This document shows positions 21,542 through 28,306 of a DNA stretch of 64,000 bases, piece by piece; position 1 is the stretch's first letter; each line of letters starts with the position of its first letter. The notes below the pieces were generated by a model, which was not told the DNA's origin, searched no databases, and was given only the letters and a program-made list of their open reading frames with translations. Origin of the DNA: Zygosaccharomyces rouxii (taxonomy: Eukaryota; Ascomycota; Saccharomycetes; Saccharomycetales; Saccharomycetaceae); the NCBI RefSeq assembly GCF_000026365.1, contig NC_012995.1, positions 1,180,501 through 1,244,500 of the forward strand, read 5' to 3'. The translations under genes were made by a program, and so were the position numbers.

Positions 21542-21648
21542 GAGCACCATTAATTTTCTTGTGACTGTCGTGTAATAGAAAACCCATTCACCAATTTTGA
21601 AATTTCCAAACCTTTTTTTTTACTTTCTGCGTTGGTAACGGAACGCGA
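21542..21648 (+). repeat. 107-bp perfect inverted repeat, copy A (RPS6 promoter)
   Basis: Base by base, this segment is the exact reverse complement of 26068-26174, with no mismatch over 107 bp including a 9-T tract; the next base on each side differs. It starts 401 bp before the RPS6 ATG. It contains an exact match to the Rap1 consensus RMACCCANNCAYY at 21580-21592 and TGTGACTG at 21560-21567, the reverse complement of the Homol-D core known from yeast ribosomal-protein promoters. Its right end falls inside a perfect hairpin stem (21642-21649 with 21655-21662). Confidence 0.97.
21580..21592 (+). promoter_or_regulatory. Predicted Rap1 site, RPS6 promoter
   Basis: AAACCCATTCACC matches the general Rap1 consensus RMACCCANNCAYY at every position, and is followed within 20 bp by a T9 tract. 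Rap1 plus a T-rich segment at 200-450 bp before the ATG is the normal design of ribosomal-protein promoters in Saccharomyces relatives. Binding is not shown. Confidence 0.6.
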
Positions 21649-21845
21649 GCATTCCTCGCGTTGTGGTCGCCTCCCACGCGGACTCCCCGACCAACCATGC
21701 GGAGGGCTTTCGCCCGCAAGTTTCCGTCCATGCCTCTACCGCTCTCCCTAACTCCTAGGCGGACCTCCGCCTAACTTCGTCTCCAAACCATGCTGCTCCT
21801 TCCAGACCCGACGCACACCGAGGAAACCTGACTCGCACCAACAAT
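21642..21845. other. GC-rich, hairpin-bearing tract upstream of RPS6
   Basis: About 200 bp clearly richer in G+C and in pyrimidines than the surroundings. It has an 8-bp-stem hairpin AACGCGAG/CTCGCGTT at 21642-21662 and GGGC-TTTC-GCCC at 21704-21715. It also has an 18-bp near-palindrome TAGGCGGA-CC-TCCGCCTA at 21756-21773. No ORF, tRNA or known RNA was recognised. It lies between the predicted Rap1 site and the gene and is absent from the SSU1 copy of the repeat. Confidence 0.6.
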
Positions 21846-21942
21846 TGGCAAACCGAGCTCATCAAGCTCAAGTGACAAAAAAACCATAATATTAGCCAGA
21901 GTGACAGGTAAAGAGATCAAAGGAGTAGACCAGTGAGCCATC

Positions 21943-22731
21943 ATGAAGGTATGTTGAAATTGCAGAAATGAACTTATAAACTAATATGAATTAGAAGAAT
22001 GAGAATACTAACGTTAAGTTTTATAGTTGAACATTTCCTACCCAACGAACGGTACTCAAAAGACCATCGAAATCGATGATGAACACCGTATCCGTGTCTT
22101 CTACGACAAGAGAATCGGCCAAGAAGTCGAAGGTGATGCCGTTGGTGATGAATTCAAGGGTTACGTTTTCAAGATCTCCGGTGGTAACGACAAACAAGGT
22201 TTCCCAATGAAGCAAGGTGTTTTGTTGCCAACCAGAGTTAAATTGTTGTTGTCTCAAGGTCACTCCTGTTACAGACCAAGAAGAACTGGTGAAAGAAAGA
22301 GAAAGTCTGTCAGAGGTGCCATCGTTGGTCCAGATTTGGCTGTTTTGGCTCTTGTCATCGTCAAGAAGGGTGACGCTGAACTAGAAGGTCTAACTGACAA
22401 CACTGTTCCAAAGAGATTGGGTCCAAAGAGAGCTAACCACATCAGAAAGTTCTTCGGTTTGTCTCAGGATGACGATGTCCGTGACTTTGTCATCAAGAGA
22501 GAAGTTACCAAGGGTGAAAAGACCTTCACCAAGTCTCCAAAGATCCAAAGATTGGTCACTCCTCAAAGATTGCAAAGAAAGAGACACCAAAGAGCTTTGA
22601 AGGTTAAGAACGCTCAAGCTCAAAGAGAAGCTGCTGCTGAATACGCTCAGTTGTTGGCTAAGAGACTAGGTGAAAGAAAAGCTGAAAAGGCCGAGATCAG
22701 AAAGAGAAGAGCCTCTTCTTTGAAGGCTTAA
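21943..22731 (+). CDS. RPS6: 40S ribosomal protein S6 (eS6), spliced
   Basis: The coding sequence joins 21943-21948 (ATGAAG) to 22027-22731, giving 236 residues, the same length as S. cerevisiae Rps6. The intron 21949-22026 is 78 nt: 5' site GTATGT, branch TACTAAC at 22006-22012, 3' site TAG at 22024-22026. An earlier AAG at 22016-22018 is too close to the branch and would give an immediate stop. The position after two codons is the same as in RPS6A/RPS6B, but the intron is much shorter. The C-terminus RRASSLKA holds the serines phosphorylated downstream of TORC1. One copy here stands for the YBR181C/YPL090C pair. It is convergent with GLR1. Confidence 0.98.
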
Positions 22732-22904
22732 GTCCGGCATAATTTTGGGTCCGCATAAAAACTTTATATATCTCAACTTAGTCTAATAACTACCTGTTTC
22801 TGTATGCTGTATTGTAAAACAACACGAGTGAAAAAAAATCTCAAAACAAAAGATACTAATGAAATGAATCTTGAATATAACGCTACGTTTACCTATATGT
22901 CAAC

Positions 22905-24362
22905 TTATCTTAAAGTTACTAATTCTTCGGCACTTGTTGGATGGATGGCGACACAGTTGTCAAAATCTGCTTTTGTAGCACCCATCTTAATGGCAACACC
23001 GAAACCTTGTAAAATTTCTGCAGACGAATCACCAACAATGTGTAGTCCAACGACTTTTTCTTCAGGACCCGCACAAACTAATTTGTAACTAGTTGGTGAT
23101 TTTTCTTGTAGCATGGCGTAATACATGGCGGTAAAACTACTCTTGTAAACTTTAACGTTCTTTTCACCAAATTTATCAATCGCTTGCTTTTCAGTTAGAC
23201 CAATGGCACCAGCTTCAGGATGTGAAAATATGACACTAGGGACATTATTATAATCCAATTTATCATTGTGAAATTGTGATGGGCCAAATAGTCTGTTTGA
23301 CAATTTTCTACCGGCGGCAATAGCCACTGGAGTCAATTCCACTTTGCCCACGACATCACCTAGAGAATAAATCCCTTTCACGTTAGTGTTTTCATATTCA
23401 TCGACGACAATTTGTTCTCTTTCATTGAGCTTTAGACCAACATTTTCAGGTCCAATACCCAACATAGATCTACGACCCATAGTCCAAAGCAACTCATCTA
23501 CATCTTCTAGAACATTGCCATTATCCAAATGGACAGTCAGTTTACCAGTCTGTTCATCCTTTTCTATCTTAGATACTTGTGATTCCTTGTGCACATTGAC
23601 ACCGATGTTAACATAGTGGTTAGTAACAGTGTCTTGGATCAAGTTGTCGAATTTTCTCAACACAGTATCACCTCTAATAACCAAATGCGTATCTGAACCC
23701 AATCCATGGAGAACACCTGCTAGTTCAACACCAATGTAACCAGCACCCACAACAACAACCTTAGCAGGTTGCATTTCCCACTTGAAGAATCCATCAGAAT
23801 CAGTACCATAGTCAAAACCAGGAATCTTCTCAGGGTAAATGGGCTGTCCACCAGTGGCAATTAAGATGTGATCAGCTGTATAAACTTGAGTGTTTCCATC
23901 ATGTGCCTTGACTTCAACTTTACCCTCTTTGTTGAATTTAGCCCAACCATAGATGTATTCAACACCTTCCTTGTTTAAATTTCTTTCATAGATACCATTC
24001 AACCTGTGAACGTAAGCGTCTCTTTTCTGCTTAAATTCTGGCCAATCGAAGGTTAATTGCTCTTTAGTCAAGGGTAAATTCTTGCAGAAGCCATATTCAT
24101 GAGCATGGGTTAATTTATTAGCCAAGTCTGATGCATACCATGACACTTTCTTGGGAACACAACCAACGTTAACACAGGTACCACCCATTGCCTTACCCTC
24201 AATTAACAGGGTCTTAGCACCATAAGATGCGGCTCTTCTTGCGGAAGCAACACCACCGGAACCACCACCAATCACCAAGTAGTTATAATGATTCACACCA
24301 CTAGTCATCGTTCTTCTAAATATCAATCTGTAAAAACCAGCAGATTTTGGAATTAATGCCAT
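22905..24362 (-). CDS. GLR1: Glutathione reductase
   Basis: 485 residues (S. cerevisiae 483). The FAD-binding site is [13 protein letters not shown] (about 33-45) and the redox disulfide is in [13 protein letters not shown] (about 60-72). The NADPH-binding site is [11 protein letters not shown], and the C-terminal [10 protein letters not shown] supplies the catalytic His-Glu to the other subunit. It reduces GSSG to GSH with NADPH. The first 18 residues are basic and amphipathic ([12 protein letters not shown]) and a second Met follows at residue 19. The yeast gene uses two starts to make mitochondrial and cytosolic forms, and the same design is visible here. Order RPS6-GLR1-SSU1 equals YPL090-092. 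Confidence 0.97.
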
Positions 24363-24518
24363 AAATAAAGTTAAATGGACTTTTTACTTATGCTCTTGTC
24401 CTTATATACATGTCTCGTCAGATTTAGCAATCCCGAATGATTTTTTGGATGTTTGCTTAGTTACTACCATCTGACAAATTATTGAGAGAAAAGGTCATTT
24501 GACCTAATTTTGAATATT

Positions 24519-25916
24519 CTAAACTAGTCTTGATGAATTATCTTCATGGAAATTTGAATTTGTGGTATCGAATTTAGACTCCTCTTGTAATTGATCCTCA
24601 GTCAATGTAGAACTACGATGATCACGACGAATTCTTATTTTCTTTAATCTGGGGATTACAGAGTGATAAAATGTACCGGAGAGGCACACTAGGGTCCAGA
24701 TTATGCAGATCGATGCGTAGATGGTTCCCAAAACTCTAAAAGTCTTCATGGGCACGTAATCATTGTAAAGGACCCAAATTCTATAGGTACCCAACGACAT
24801 GGCTCCCATGGGGAAAGTCATTGCAAACCAACCTCTGTGGAAATGCCATATTCTCCTACGCTTAATTCCGGAGCCAACATTAATTTCTACCGCTGATTTC
24901 CAATGTGATGACAACGATGTAAAGCCAATTACGGTAAAGAAATAACCAAAAGACAGTAGTAAGAATGCTAACATTAGCGCAATGATTTTAAATGACCATG
25001 GTACTGCGAGTAATAAAATTTGCCTTTGTAGATCAGAATTATTATTGTTAACATTTCCATTATTACCGTTATAGTATTTTTCCACATAAAGCCTAATGTC
25101 TTCAGTGAGCAAGTTAATACCATATGCCCCTTGACCCATGGGGCCCAAAAACAAGAAGGTCGTAAAGGCTTGCATCATGGCAGGTAACTTATTGACATAG
25201 AAATTCCAAAAATTGATGACAAATAAGATGGCGACAAATCCTTGGGCTTGCAACCAAACCAATACCGTAATTACAAGTGTCAATAATTGAATATTTCTGT
25301 TAAAAGTTTCTGAAAAAAGATCTGTCATGGTAAATAATCCACTGGATGAACTATTCACTACCAATGGTATAATATTCAGCAAAAGTGTACTGTTTAGATG
25401 TTCAGACATTACTTTCTCCTGATGTGATCTGTGTTTACCCAATGGACCCATAAAGTGTCTCTGCCAAATGAGAAAGGAAATCCCCCATGCACATAATAAT
25501 GCTAACGCTAAGTCGTACCACCATAATACGTAAACCAATCTCATTACACGTTTAGCTTTTATTTTACTTTCAATTCTGTGTTCCGCCAATAGATATAAAT
25601 AATTTATAATGGTCGAAAGACCCATTGGATATGTCCCCCACCCAGTACTTATCGTAACGTTTCTAATAAATTGATCCACATACTCTTTAAACGATTTATC
25701 CTTCACATAGAATATAAAATGAACAATACCCATTAATTGGAGATATAGGAATAGCAATACAGCAGTTGCAAACATGGGATAAGAGCATATCTTTAACCAT
25801 CTTGCTTCATAAGGGAATTCAAAAAGTAAATCTGCAGAAATACCAGTCCCCATTACCATTACAAAGAGGAATGGATGGAACCAACTTCCAAAATTTCTTA
25901 ATCGTCTTGCTATCAT
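24519..25916 (-). CDS. SSU1: Plasma-membrane sulfite efflux pump
   Basis: 465 residues from the ATG at 25916; the frame extends 20 codons upstream only to a TTG. About ten hydrophobic helices of the tellurite-resistance/dicarboxylate transporter (TDT) family are seen. Strongly Ssu1-like segments are WGTYPMGLSTIINYL, VYVLWWYDLALALLCAWG, FNRNIQLLTLVI, FLFLGPMGQGAYGINLL and FPMGAMSLG. The last 50 residues are hydrophilic. Ssu1 exports sulfite and sets SO2 tolerance. An N-rich insert near residue 300 is lineage-specific. The promoter carries a 107-bp block identical to part of the RPS6 promoter, with a predicted Rap1 site about 210 bp before the ATG, so high growth-linked expression is a reasonable inference. 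Confidence 0.95.
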   Translation of the reverse strand: MIARRLRNFGSWFHPFLFVMVMGTGISADLLFEFPYEARWLKICSYPMFATAVLLFLYLQLMGIVHFIFYVKDKSFKEYVDQFIRNVTISTGWGTYPMGLSTIINYLYLLAEHRIESKIKAKRVMRLVYVLWWYDLALALLCAWGISFLIWQRHFMGPLGKHRSHQEKVMSEHLNSTLLLNIIPLVVNSSSSGLFTMTDLFSETFNRNIQLLTLVITVLVWLQAQGFVAILFVINFWNFYVNKLPAMMQAFTTFLFLGPMGQGAYGINLLTEDIRLYVEKYYNGNNGNVNNNNSDLQRQILLLAVPWSFKIIALMLAFLLLSFGYFFTVIGFTSLSSHWKSAVEINVGSGIKRRRIWHFHRGWFAMTFPMGAMSLGTYRIWVLYNDYVPMKTFRVLGTIYASICIIWTLVCLSGTFYHSVIPRLKKIRIRRDHRSSTLTEDQLQEESKFDTTNSNFHEDNSSRLV

Positions 25917-26605
25917 CTGTGTAAGGCTGAGCAAATACGATATAATACCATACGTCGGTTCTAGTACTAACAGCAATGCAGAAGAAATGGGAATCTAGTG
26001 AACAGAACCTTCATATTCGTTCATTAAGTAACCTCTCAGTGAATATTGTTGTAACTCATCAAGCTCATCGCGTTCCGTTACCAACGCAGAAAGTAAAAAA
26101 AAAGGTTTGGAAATTTCAAAATTGGTGAATGGGTTTTCTATTACACGACAGTCACAAGAAAATTAATGGTGCTCATCGCTTGTTTCTTGAAAGGGACTTC
26201 CGCCCTCCGCGATCAACGTGCAACATAGTGACAAAAATAACACTGACTTCTTCGAATACAAATAGACCCTCGAAGACTCATATCAATTCTGTCCTCCAAA
26301 ATATCTATAACGCTATCTTGGATCGTGGGGTTCCATGATGGACTACCTTCAAAAGGCCAAGTGAGAAGAGTCAAGTTTCAGGTGAAAAAAAGTCATCTTA
26401 AGAAGTGTTGCAAAAGACGTATTTACCAGTGAACCTGTAGTACAATGTAGCTGACTAAACCAAAATTCAATGAATAGTTCCGTGCCTCTAAGTCTCTGTA
26501 TCTCCGAATACTTTAGAATTGACAACGATGGCGACAGCGACACACTGACGCCAGAAGTGGAATAAACATTTGAAAAATTAAAAAGAATAAAAATTTTAGA
26601 AAATC
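25917..26605. promoter_or_regulatory. SSU1 upstream region carrying the RPS6-type promoter block
   Basis: 689 bp between the SSU1 ATG and the DTR1 stop, both genes on the minus strand. Besides repeat copy B (26068-26174) I see no gene. The sequence beyond the repeat (26175-26605) does not resemble the flank of copy A. Confidence 0.6.
26068..26174 (-). repeat. 107-bp perfect inverted repeat, copy B (SSU1 promoter)
   Basis: Exact reverse complement of 21542-21648. Because SSU1 is on the minus strand, the block has the same orientation toward SSU1 as copy A has toward RPS6. The predicted Rap1 site is at 26124-26136, 208-220 bp before the SSU1 ATG; CAGTCACA, the Homol-D core, is at 26149-26156; the A9 (T9 on the gene strand) run is at 26095-26103. 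Confidence 0.97.
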
Positions 26606-28306
26606 CTACATGCTATTATTTATTTTCCCCTGCCAATGACCACTATTTTTGAGCAAGTACAATACCCCTGCCAGTGAAATTAAATTGCAAAGTCCCAATC
26701 CAGTGAAGCACCAACCAATCCCCATGGCACGACAAAGCTTTATAATTATTGCAGAACTTATGGTAGCTCCTACATTACGAAAAAGACTACTCACGGCAAT
26801 GGCACCAGCAGTTCTTCTGGTTAAAAGCTCCGACAAATATGTCATGGTTGTATTGCTACACCATGTTAGCCCAAATGCGCTTAATGCTGAAAATACCAAG
26901 ATTACTGCCAAATGGTAATGCCTGTCAATCGACCAACCGTAACCAATACAACCTAGCATATTGATTAAAATACCGAAAATTTGTAAAATAAGACGAAACT
27001 CTAATGGGAATTTTTGATTCTCATGGTTTTTCATCCAACGTTGACGCATATAATCTGAAAGGTGTCCGCCAGATTGCGATCCTATCAGCATGGCTATACC
27101 TGGACACACATAAGACGCACCTACCTGCAAGTTAGACATGTTATAATCAGTTTGCAAAAAATGAGACAGGGTGACACTAAAGGCATAGTAATTGGCAAAT
27201 AAAAGTGCAGTGCTAATGGATGAAATTGTCACTGGCATCATTTTCATCATATTCCAATATATGCGAAGTGATGGTTTGGAAGGTCTGGGGTAGAGAAATT
27301 GAAACCGTGGTCCCGTATTGACTGGTTTCTGAATGCCAACATCAGGGAATAGCCGCCAGGCCGGTGGTTCCACATGGCCTAAATTTTCGACATCTTCATC
27401 CACCATAGTGCCAAAATTACTAGATTTTTTCCAGCGCTGATCTCCATTACCTACGATACATCTCAAAGTTTCTGGTAAAATCAAGACAACCGCAATAAAG
27501 GCAATACCGCTCATAATACTCGTAAATCCAAATAGCCATCGCCAAGCGTCACTTTCCATTAAGATTAAACCGGAGATTATAGGCGCTAAGATGGGCCCCA
27601 TATTGGGCCCCATCATAAAATATCCGATGGCTTTGCCTCTATGCTTTGGTGGTGTAATATCAGTCACGGTTCCTGTCCCCAAAGAAATTGCAGAACTTGA
27701 ACCAAATGCCTGGAACACTCTCAGGACATAAAGGGCACCAATATTGGCAGGAACCGATGCCAATAGGATATTTACAATTATTAGTAATAATATGGAAGTG
27801 ATGTAAAGGAATTTCCTACCTGTTGAGTCGGCAAACATTCCCCAAAACAGTGGCCCCACGGAAAAAACGGCCATAAATGCAGACACAGTGGAATTGATGG
27901 TTGTAGAACCCACATTGAATTTTTGTTGTAGCAGTGGCAATGCTGGAATATAAATATTACCAGCCATGGGTCCCAAAAATCCAATGAAGATTACAATGGC
28001 AAAAATAACCATTCTTTGAAGCCGTGTAAAACAAGTATAAGGTTCATCGTCTAGTGCGAAATCTTTTAACCCATTTTGTGGTGTGGGACTCAACGATGAT
28101 ACTTTTTTAACACTTTCAGGTGCAAGTGCAATAGCACTAGTATCATCCTTCCCATCATGGTGACTCAATTCGGTCACACGAGGACTCTTCTTAGTACTAT
28201 TCTCATTTATATTGGTTGCTGAAGTCCTAAATGTCATTGAACTCTCATTAGAGAGCTCTGGGGCATTTCCCACATTAACAACGTTAGAGTCCGATTTTTC
28301 CAACAT
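26606..28306 (-). CDS. DTR1: MFS drug:H+ antiporter, spore-wall dityrosine transporter type
   Basis: 566 residues (S. cerevisiae Dtr1 572). About 95 hydrophilic Ser/Thr-rich residues come first, followed by 12 predicted membrane helices of the DHA1 group. Motif A appears as GMFADSTGRKFLY between helices 2 and 3, and motif C is represented by GYFMMGPNMGPILAPIISG. Dtr1 secretes bisformyl dityrosine for the outer spore wall and also affects weak-acid tolerance. Position beside SSU1 and NOG1 corresponds to YBR180W in the merged ancestral order and is the main reason for choosing Dtr1 over the related Qdr proteins. A CACAAA core resembling a middle-sporulation element lies near 28407-28415, about 100 bp before the ATG. 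Confidence 0.85.
   Translation of the reverse strand: MLEKSDSNVVNVGNAPELSNESSMTFRTSATNINENSTKKSPRVTELSHHDGKDDTSAIALAPESVKKVSSLSPTPQNGLKDFALDDEPYTCFTRLQRMVIFAIVIFIGFLGPMAGNIYIPALPLLQQKFNVGSTTINSTVSAFMAVFSVGPLFWGMFADSTGRKFLYITSILLLIIVNILLASVPANIGALYVLRVFQAFGSSSAISLGTGTVTDITPPKHRGKAIGYFMMGPNMGPILAPIISGLILMESDAWRWLFGFTSIMSGIAFIAVVLILPETLRCIVGNGDQRWKKSSNFGTMVDEDVENLGHVEPPAWRLFPDVGIQKPVNTGPRFQFLYPRPSKPSLRIYWNMMKMMPVTISSISTALLFANYYAFSVTLSHFLQTDYNMSNLQVGASYVCPGIAMLIGSQSGGHLSDYMRQRWMKNHENQKFPLEFRLILQIFGILINMLGCIGYGWSIDRHYHLAVILVFSALSAFGLTWCSNTTMTYLSELLTRRTAGAIAVSSLFRNVGATISSAIIIKLCRAMGIGWCFTGLGLCNLISLAGVLYLLKNSGHWQGKINNSM

Follow-up and report, generated by a model that had tools for sequence, protein, structure and literature searches.

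The window analysed here, a 64-kb stretch on contig 6 of a Zygosaccharomyces rouxii genome that we take to be that of strain CBS 732, carries a 107-bp block in two exact, inverted copies, one in the promoter of the ribosomal-protein (RP) gene RPS6 and one in the promoter of the sulfite exporter gene SSU1. RPS6 lies on the (+) strand (21943..22731; PF01092), with a first exon reading ATGAAG, an intron placed by eye and a second exon beginning at about 22027. SSU1 lies on the (−) strand (24519..25916; PF03595, SLAC1). Between them, also on the (−) strand, is a gene for a glutathione reductase-like protein (22905..24362) that matches the pyridine nucleotide-disulphide oxidoreductases and that we take to be GLR1. 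The order RPS6-GLR1-SSU1 presumably agrees with that on Saccharomyces cerevisiae chromosome XVI. Upstream of SSU1 is a DTR1-like MFS transporter gene, recognized by family match (26606..28306, (−) strand). The published locus tags are ZYRO0F14630g for SSU1 and ZYRO0F14652g for DTR1 (PMC7026193).

The copy upstream of RPS6 occupies 21542..21648 on the (+) strand, −401 to −295 relative to the ATG at 21943, and the copy upstream of SSU1 occupies 26068..26174 on the (−) strand, −258 to −152 relative to the ATG at 25916. Compared as reverse complements the two agree at 107/107 bases, and similarity ends abruptly at both edges. The copies are 4.4 kb apart, with RPS6, the GLR1-like gene and SSU1 in between, and they share the same sense, each facing its own gene. 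Both the exact inverted identity and the direction of each copy toward its gene had been described in an earlier note made from the letters of this DNA, and both were confirmed. The pair is the longest inverted repeat between 14 and 34 kb of the window, and in a search of the 64 kb for exact repeats of at least 25 bp, all repeated 25-mers stemmed from it. A DNA search of the whole genome (9,764,635 bp in 7 contigs; E up to 0.001) placed the block at these two sites only, which rules out a dispersed repeat.

Like budding-yeast RP promoters, with their Rap1, Fhl1/Ifh1 and Homol-D, the block presents a Homol-D core, a Rap1-type site and a T tract in that order, the T tract being judged by eye. 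The Homol-D core TGTGACTG is found at 21560..21567 (+) in the RPS6 copy and at 26149..26156 (−) in the SSU1 copy, the Rap1-type site ACCCATTCACC at 21582..21592 (+) and 26124..26134 (−), and the T9 tract at 21613..21621 (+) and 26095..26103 (−). The label Homol-D is taken over from the earlier note, and a factor presumably goes with it. That note had listed all three motifs and called the Rap1 site an exact consensus. TGTGACTG and the T9 tract are exact, and the Rap1 site is instead a variant, scoring 9.5 bits against a matrix from other RP promoters whose consensus is ACATCCGTACATC.

To place these motifs, 21 other RP genes were located in the genome and their upstream regions compared, with RPS6 held out of the matrices. 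Five of 26 RP matches were omitted, namely four weak ones (L013, L026, L027 and L028) and L024, which belongs to the same gene as L025, already counted. Upstream distances were counted from where the protein match begins, and introns may hide the true starts. At thresholds of 9.4 bits for Rap1 and 13 bits for Homol-D, a Homol-D/Rap1 pair within 60 bp was found in 13 of the 21 promoters, an in-sample count as the matrices were built from the same promoters, versus 0/600 background windows (random 700-bp windows from the rest of the 64 kb, overlapping, with coding and non-coding sequence mixed). The pair is also present upstream of RPS6 and SSU1, in the block copies, and the comparison bears out the view of the block as an RP-promoter module. 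Eleven of the 13 paired promoters are oriented like the module, and 9 of these have spacings of 9-23 bp, the spacing in the module being 21 bp. The Homol-D word ACAGTCA occurs in 18/22 RP promoters including RPS6 (4.3 expected). Homol-D alone is uninformative within the window (3 matches versus 2.55 expected), and only the pair is informative.

The variant ACCCATTCACC recurs upstream of RPS3 and RPS30. Of its nine occurrences in the genome, four are inside open frames (305-1003 codons long) and five are intergenic. The intergenic ones precede RPS3, RPS30, RPS6, SSU1 and a gene resembling PDC, with RPS30 and the PDC-like gene recognized by eye. With five occurrences of the reversed control pattern, the variant is only slightly in excess by number, and it is the location of the sites that is informative. 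A Homol-D sequence (GTGACTGTY) followed by ACCCATTCACC within 30 bp is found at only three places in the genome: RPS30, RPS6 and SSU1. As a separate observation, the site preceding the PDC-like gene (L042:1501-1511) adjoins an ADE2-like gene, both names being given by eye, and its position would fit the use of Rap1 at glycolytic genes.

The module nevertheless does not contain everything that an RP promoter has. The IFHL-type element CCGACGCA, present in 13/22 RP promoters including RPS6 (0.4 expected), lies at RPS6 outside the copied block (21808..21815, (+) strand, 11.7 bits), as does CCTAGGCGGA (21754..21763, (+) strand), a CTAGGCGGA-type motif common to other RP promoters. In the SSU1 promoter no IFHL-type GACGCA was found downstream of the Rap1 site, the only match being on the minus strand within the module (11.1 bits), nor was there a good CTAGGCGGA-type match. 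In the RP promoters of this genome, by contrast, an IFHL-type element stands downstream. The IFHL motif is given as YKYGCGTC (PMC4579351). Judged by its motifs, the module amounts to half of an RP promoter; the part with the IFHL-type element stayed behind at RPS6.

Two further observations concern RP promoters in this genome generally. The word AGGCGGA, of the CTAGGCGGA type, is found in 8/22 of them (0.3 expected); it is not known to be bound by any factor. A CTAGGCGGA matrix was set aside after it drifted toward purine-rich sequence. RPL4 (L012) has neither a clear Homol-D nor a clear Rap1 site, and RPS22b (L025) and RPL15 (L010) have no Homol-D; not every RP promoter here follows the Homol-D/Rap1 pattern.

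Which promoter the block came from can be approached through what each would look like without it. The RPS6 upstream region minus the block has neither motif, with best matches of 5.3 bits for Homol-D and 7.1 bits for Rap1, and among the 21 other RP promoters only one, that of RPL4, similarly misses both. SSU1 minus the block also has neither (Homol-D 7.1 bits, Rap1 5.8 bits). Given this motif content with and without the block, the block appears to complete an RP promoter at RPS6 and to be foreign at SSU1. This was further evidenced by the edges of the SSU1 copy, each of which is straddled by the 9-bp direct repeat GCGATGAGC, five bases outside and four inside (26063..26071 at the SSU1-proximal edge and 26171..26179 at the distal edge, both on the (−) strand). 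A search with the joined SSU1 flanks shows the 9-bp overlap directly, and among simulated random insertions a repeat of at least 9 bp arose in about 0.13% (0.0013). These findings support RPS6 as donor and SSU1 as recipient, the direction that the earlier note had considered likely. Were the block instead native to SSU1 and copied to the RPS6 promoter, the 5-bp repeat (GAGCA) across the RPS6 block edges, with a simulated chance of about 0.04, might be its trace; that direction would leave the original RPS6 promoter as poor in motifs as RPL4 and turn the 9-bp footprint at SSU1 into a coincidence, and we consider it very improbable.

We propose that a break in the SSU1 promoter was repaired by a templated insertion, in which microhomology primed the copying of about 100 bp of the upstream activating region of RPS6, and that the insert came to lie in the orientation that points toward SSU1. 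The observed product is just what would be expected of a break with 9-nt complementary ends, if the last four bases of each end primed synthesis on the RPS6 promoter. An origin by templated insertion during break repair seems likely in that the donor is kept, the copy is short and unique, and microhomology or duplication is present at the SSU1 edges. Templated insertions in yeast are reported as copy-paste events with a median length of 88 bp in rad27 and 187 bp in dna2 mutants, and complex two-fragment insertions as having 0-4 bp of microhomology at break ends, with a median of 2 (PMC11724301). The module resembles the insertions of that report in being a copy of about 0.1 kb with its donor kept and 4-bp microhomologies at its edges. 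It differs from them in that a regulatory element has moved between neighbouring promoters, and in that those insertions were laboratory events, enriched in repair mutants, whereas the SSU1 copy stands in a genome assembly. RP promoter pieces do not appear to be copied routinely, since the 14 other RP modules (of 21 collected) that were searched genome-wide all matched only their own place, in a search that skips very common words.

A 13-mer, CTCATCAAGCTCA, abuts the insert (26055..26067, (+) strand) and is common to the RPS6 leader, where it lies just upstream of the gene (21858..21870, (+) strand). Such a match has a chance of 2% over the whole flanks (8/400), or about 0.0015 at each edge, and the 13-mer could be either a second patch or coincidental. 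Many of the two-fragment insertions described in PMC11724301 combine segments of a single locus that lie in opposite orientations, and the module and the 13-mer could be such a pair; the inverted pieces there were joined by 2-11 bp of microhomology, and inspection by eye showed none linking the 13-mer to the end of the module.

Other histories could also leave two inverted copies around a gene block. The copies might be an old inverted repeat whose identity is maintained by gene conversion, perhaps along with repeated inversion of the RPS6-GLR1-SSU1 segment; the perfect identity and the 4.4-kb spacing suit both conversion and inversion, and a flip would leave each gene with its proximal promoter and a module, but the gene order is that of S. 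cerevisiae chromosome XVI. We think this rather improbable, and it bears on the age and upkeep of the copies, not on their origin, so that it is compatible with templated insertion from RPS6. Alternatively, staggered breaks that flipped the segment could have left an inverted duplication at both ends, a scar that such an event would be expected to produce. The order of the genes is uninverted relative to S. cerevisiae, and the 9-bp repeat flanking the SSU1 copy is consistent with an insertion, making an inversion breakpoint most unlikely. The 9-bp duplication can also resemble the target-site duplication of a small transposon. That the pair is such an element, or an artefact of assembly, is hardly credible: the copies are only two, their flanks differ, their content is that of RP promoter motifs, and for a miniature inverted-repeat element (MITE) there is no terminal inverted repeat, the block ends not pairing on inspection.

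With the templated copy in place, Rap1 and the Homol-D factor would be expected to bind at SSU1 and to keep the region open. In S. cerevisiae, Rap1 is reported to recruit Fhl1, Ifh1 and Sfp1, whose cross-links fall mostly some 100 bp further downstream, and the region has been proposed to stay nucleosome-free through constitutive binding of Rap1 and Fhl1 (PMC4579351). The module would thus supply constitutive activation from a position upstream of the proximal promoter that SSU1 has retained. Since the copy does not include the IFHL-type part, a raised basal, constitutive level of SSU1 would be expected rather than the full growth-coupled control of RP genes. The earlier prediction of growth-linked sulfite export is not the natural expectation for an SSU1 copy that has no IFHL-type (GACGCA) element.

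The SSU1 promoter contains words reported as motifs of Fzf1, the activator of SSU1 in Saccharomyces. TATCGTAT and CAACAA, both described as Fzf1 motifs (PMC3375221), remain downstream of the insert, with TATCGTAT at 25935..25942 (−), a word that may be there by chance as it occurred in 52/3000 Markov sequences. CTATCA, the Fzf1 site named in PMC8631656, was not found upstream of SSU1. A genome-wide search with S. cerevisiae Fzf1 gave 12 matches, all confined to residues 7-101 (the zinc fingers) of 299, and detected no full-length FZF1, though this does not prove that the gene is missing. The best of the matches was identified as a TFIIIA through comparison with solved structures.

Several points weigh against this account of an activating RP module at SSU1. 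The module's Rap1 site lies below the median best score of 16.4 bits in RP promoters and under the 95% background level of 10.1 bits. The thresholds used for the pair were picked so that RPS6 passes, and even at these thresholds 8/21 other RP promoters are without a pair. The 9-bp repeat and the 13-mer overlap, so at least one of them may be chance, and one simple model does not need both. Lastly, in a published transcriptome of Z. rouxii strain BW-WHX-12-54 at 60% sugar, SSU1 is reported among 25 upregulated transport genes, while RPS13 (ZYRO0G09196g) and RPL4B (ZYRO0A03828g) go down (PMC7026193), which speaks against simple RP co-regulation if that strain has the module. DTR1, the neighbour of SSU1, also rises under the same conditions (PMC7026193), so the rise in SSU1 need not come from the SSU1 promoter. 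The same copying could also have been functionally neutral, a templated-insertion scar without change in SSU1 expression that has not yet decayed or been lost. The weak Rap1 site, the missing IFHL-type element downstream of it and the un-RP-like response of SSU1 in another strain would suit this, whereas the copied piece holds both upstream RP motifs, faces SSU1 correctly at a plausible activating distance, and carries a motif pairing absent from all background windows. We regard a neutral scar as a possibility with a real but minor chance of being right. Taken as a whole, the account in which a templated copy from RPS6 would have added constitutive activating sequence to the SSU1 promoter has, in our estimate, a probability of roughly 0.6.

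Two other parts of the window stand apart from these questions. Upstream of RPS6 lies a gene of the CrcB/fluoride-exporter family (PF02537; 19677-20768), whose neighbours are by eye ARG82, SUP35 and HSP42; this suggests a rearrangement break near RPS6 relative to S. cerevisiae. A structured RNA was considered for the module and rejected, as no Rfam match falls in it and two weak matches (E up to 1, 17-32 kb) fall elsewhere. The two tRNAs of the window are both far from the module.

The earlier note had likened the SSU1 promoter to those of wine strains. The likeness holds in that RP-promoter DNA, foreign to SSU1, stands upstream of it as foreign promoter DNA does in wine Saccharomyces; it fails in that the copy is small and local and the native promoter was not removed. 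Nor is this a gross translocation or inversion, the insert being about 0.1 kb and the order of neighbouring genes that of S. cerevisiae. In S. cerevisiae and S. uvarum, translocations upstream of SSU1 are reported to raise its expression and to drop the Fzf1 site, and an inversion in S. cerevisiae also raises expression, the known forms being VIII-t-XVI, XV-t-XVI and inv-XVI in S. cerevisiae and VII/XVI and XI/XVI in S. uvarum (PMC8631656; PMC7336578). Those are gross rearrangements with raised expression and tolerance shown (PMC7336578; PMC8631656), whereas the Z. rouxii case is a 107-bp local copy that keeps the SSU1 proximal promoter and for which a raised SSU1 level is a prediction; it differs in size, mechanism, donor and genus. 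The source of the matching strain is a further likeness, CBS 732 having been isolated from concentrated black-grape must (PMC3699521). Among the titles and abstract openings of the Zygosaccharomyces SSU1 literature we found no description of the 107-bp module, and we found no literature on Homol-D/Rap1 in Zygosaccharomyces.

Rearrangement of the SSU1 promoter is a standard example of how yeasts adapt to human-made conditions through structural change. Tentatively, a grape-must yeast that seems to lack Fzf1 may have rewired SSU1 with its neighbour's RP activating sequence through a break-repair patch, which would give constitutive sulfite export, perhaps of benefit in sulfited must, as a convergent adaptation outside Saccharomyces and without chromosome rearrangement. 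Wine yeasts arrived at this kind of adaptation through broken chromosomes, and the copying of RP-promoter sequence may be a new way to reach it. If this is true, the same SSU1 locus would have been hit in another genus by a different mutational route, and break-repair patches could carry a working regulatory module from one promoter to another.

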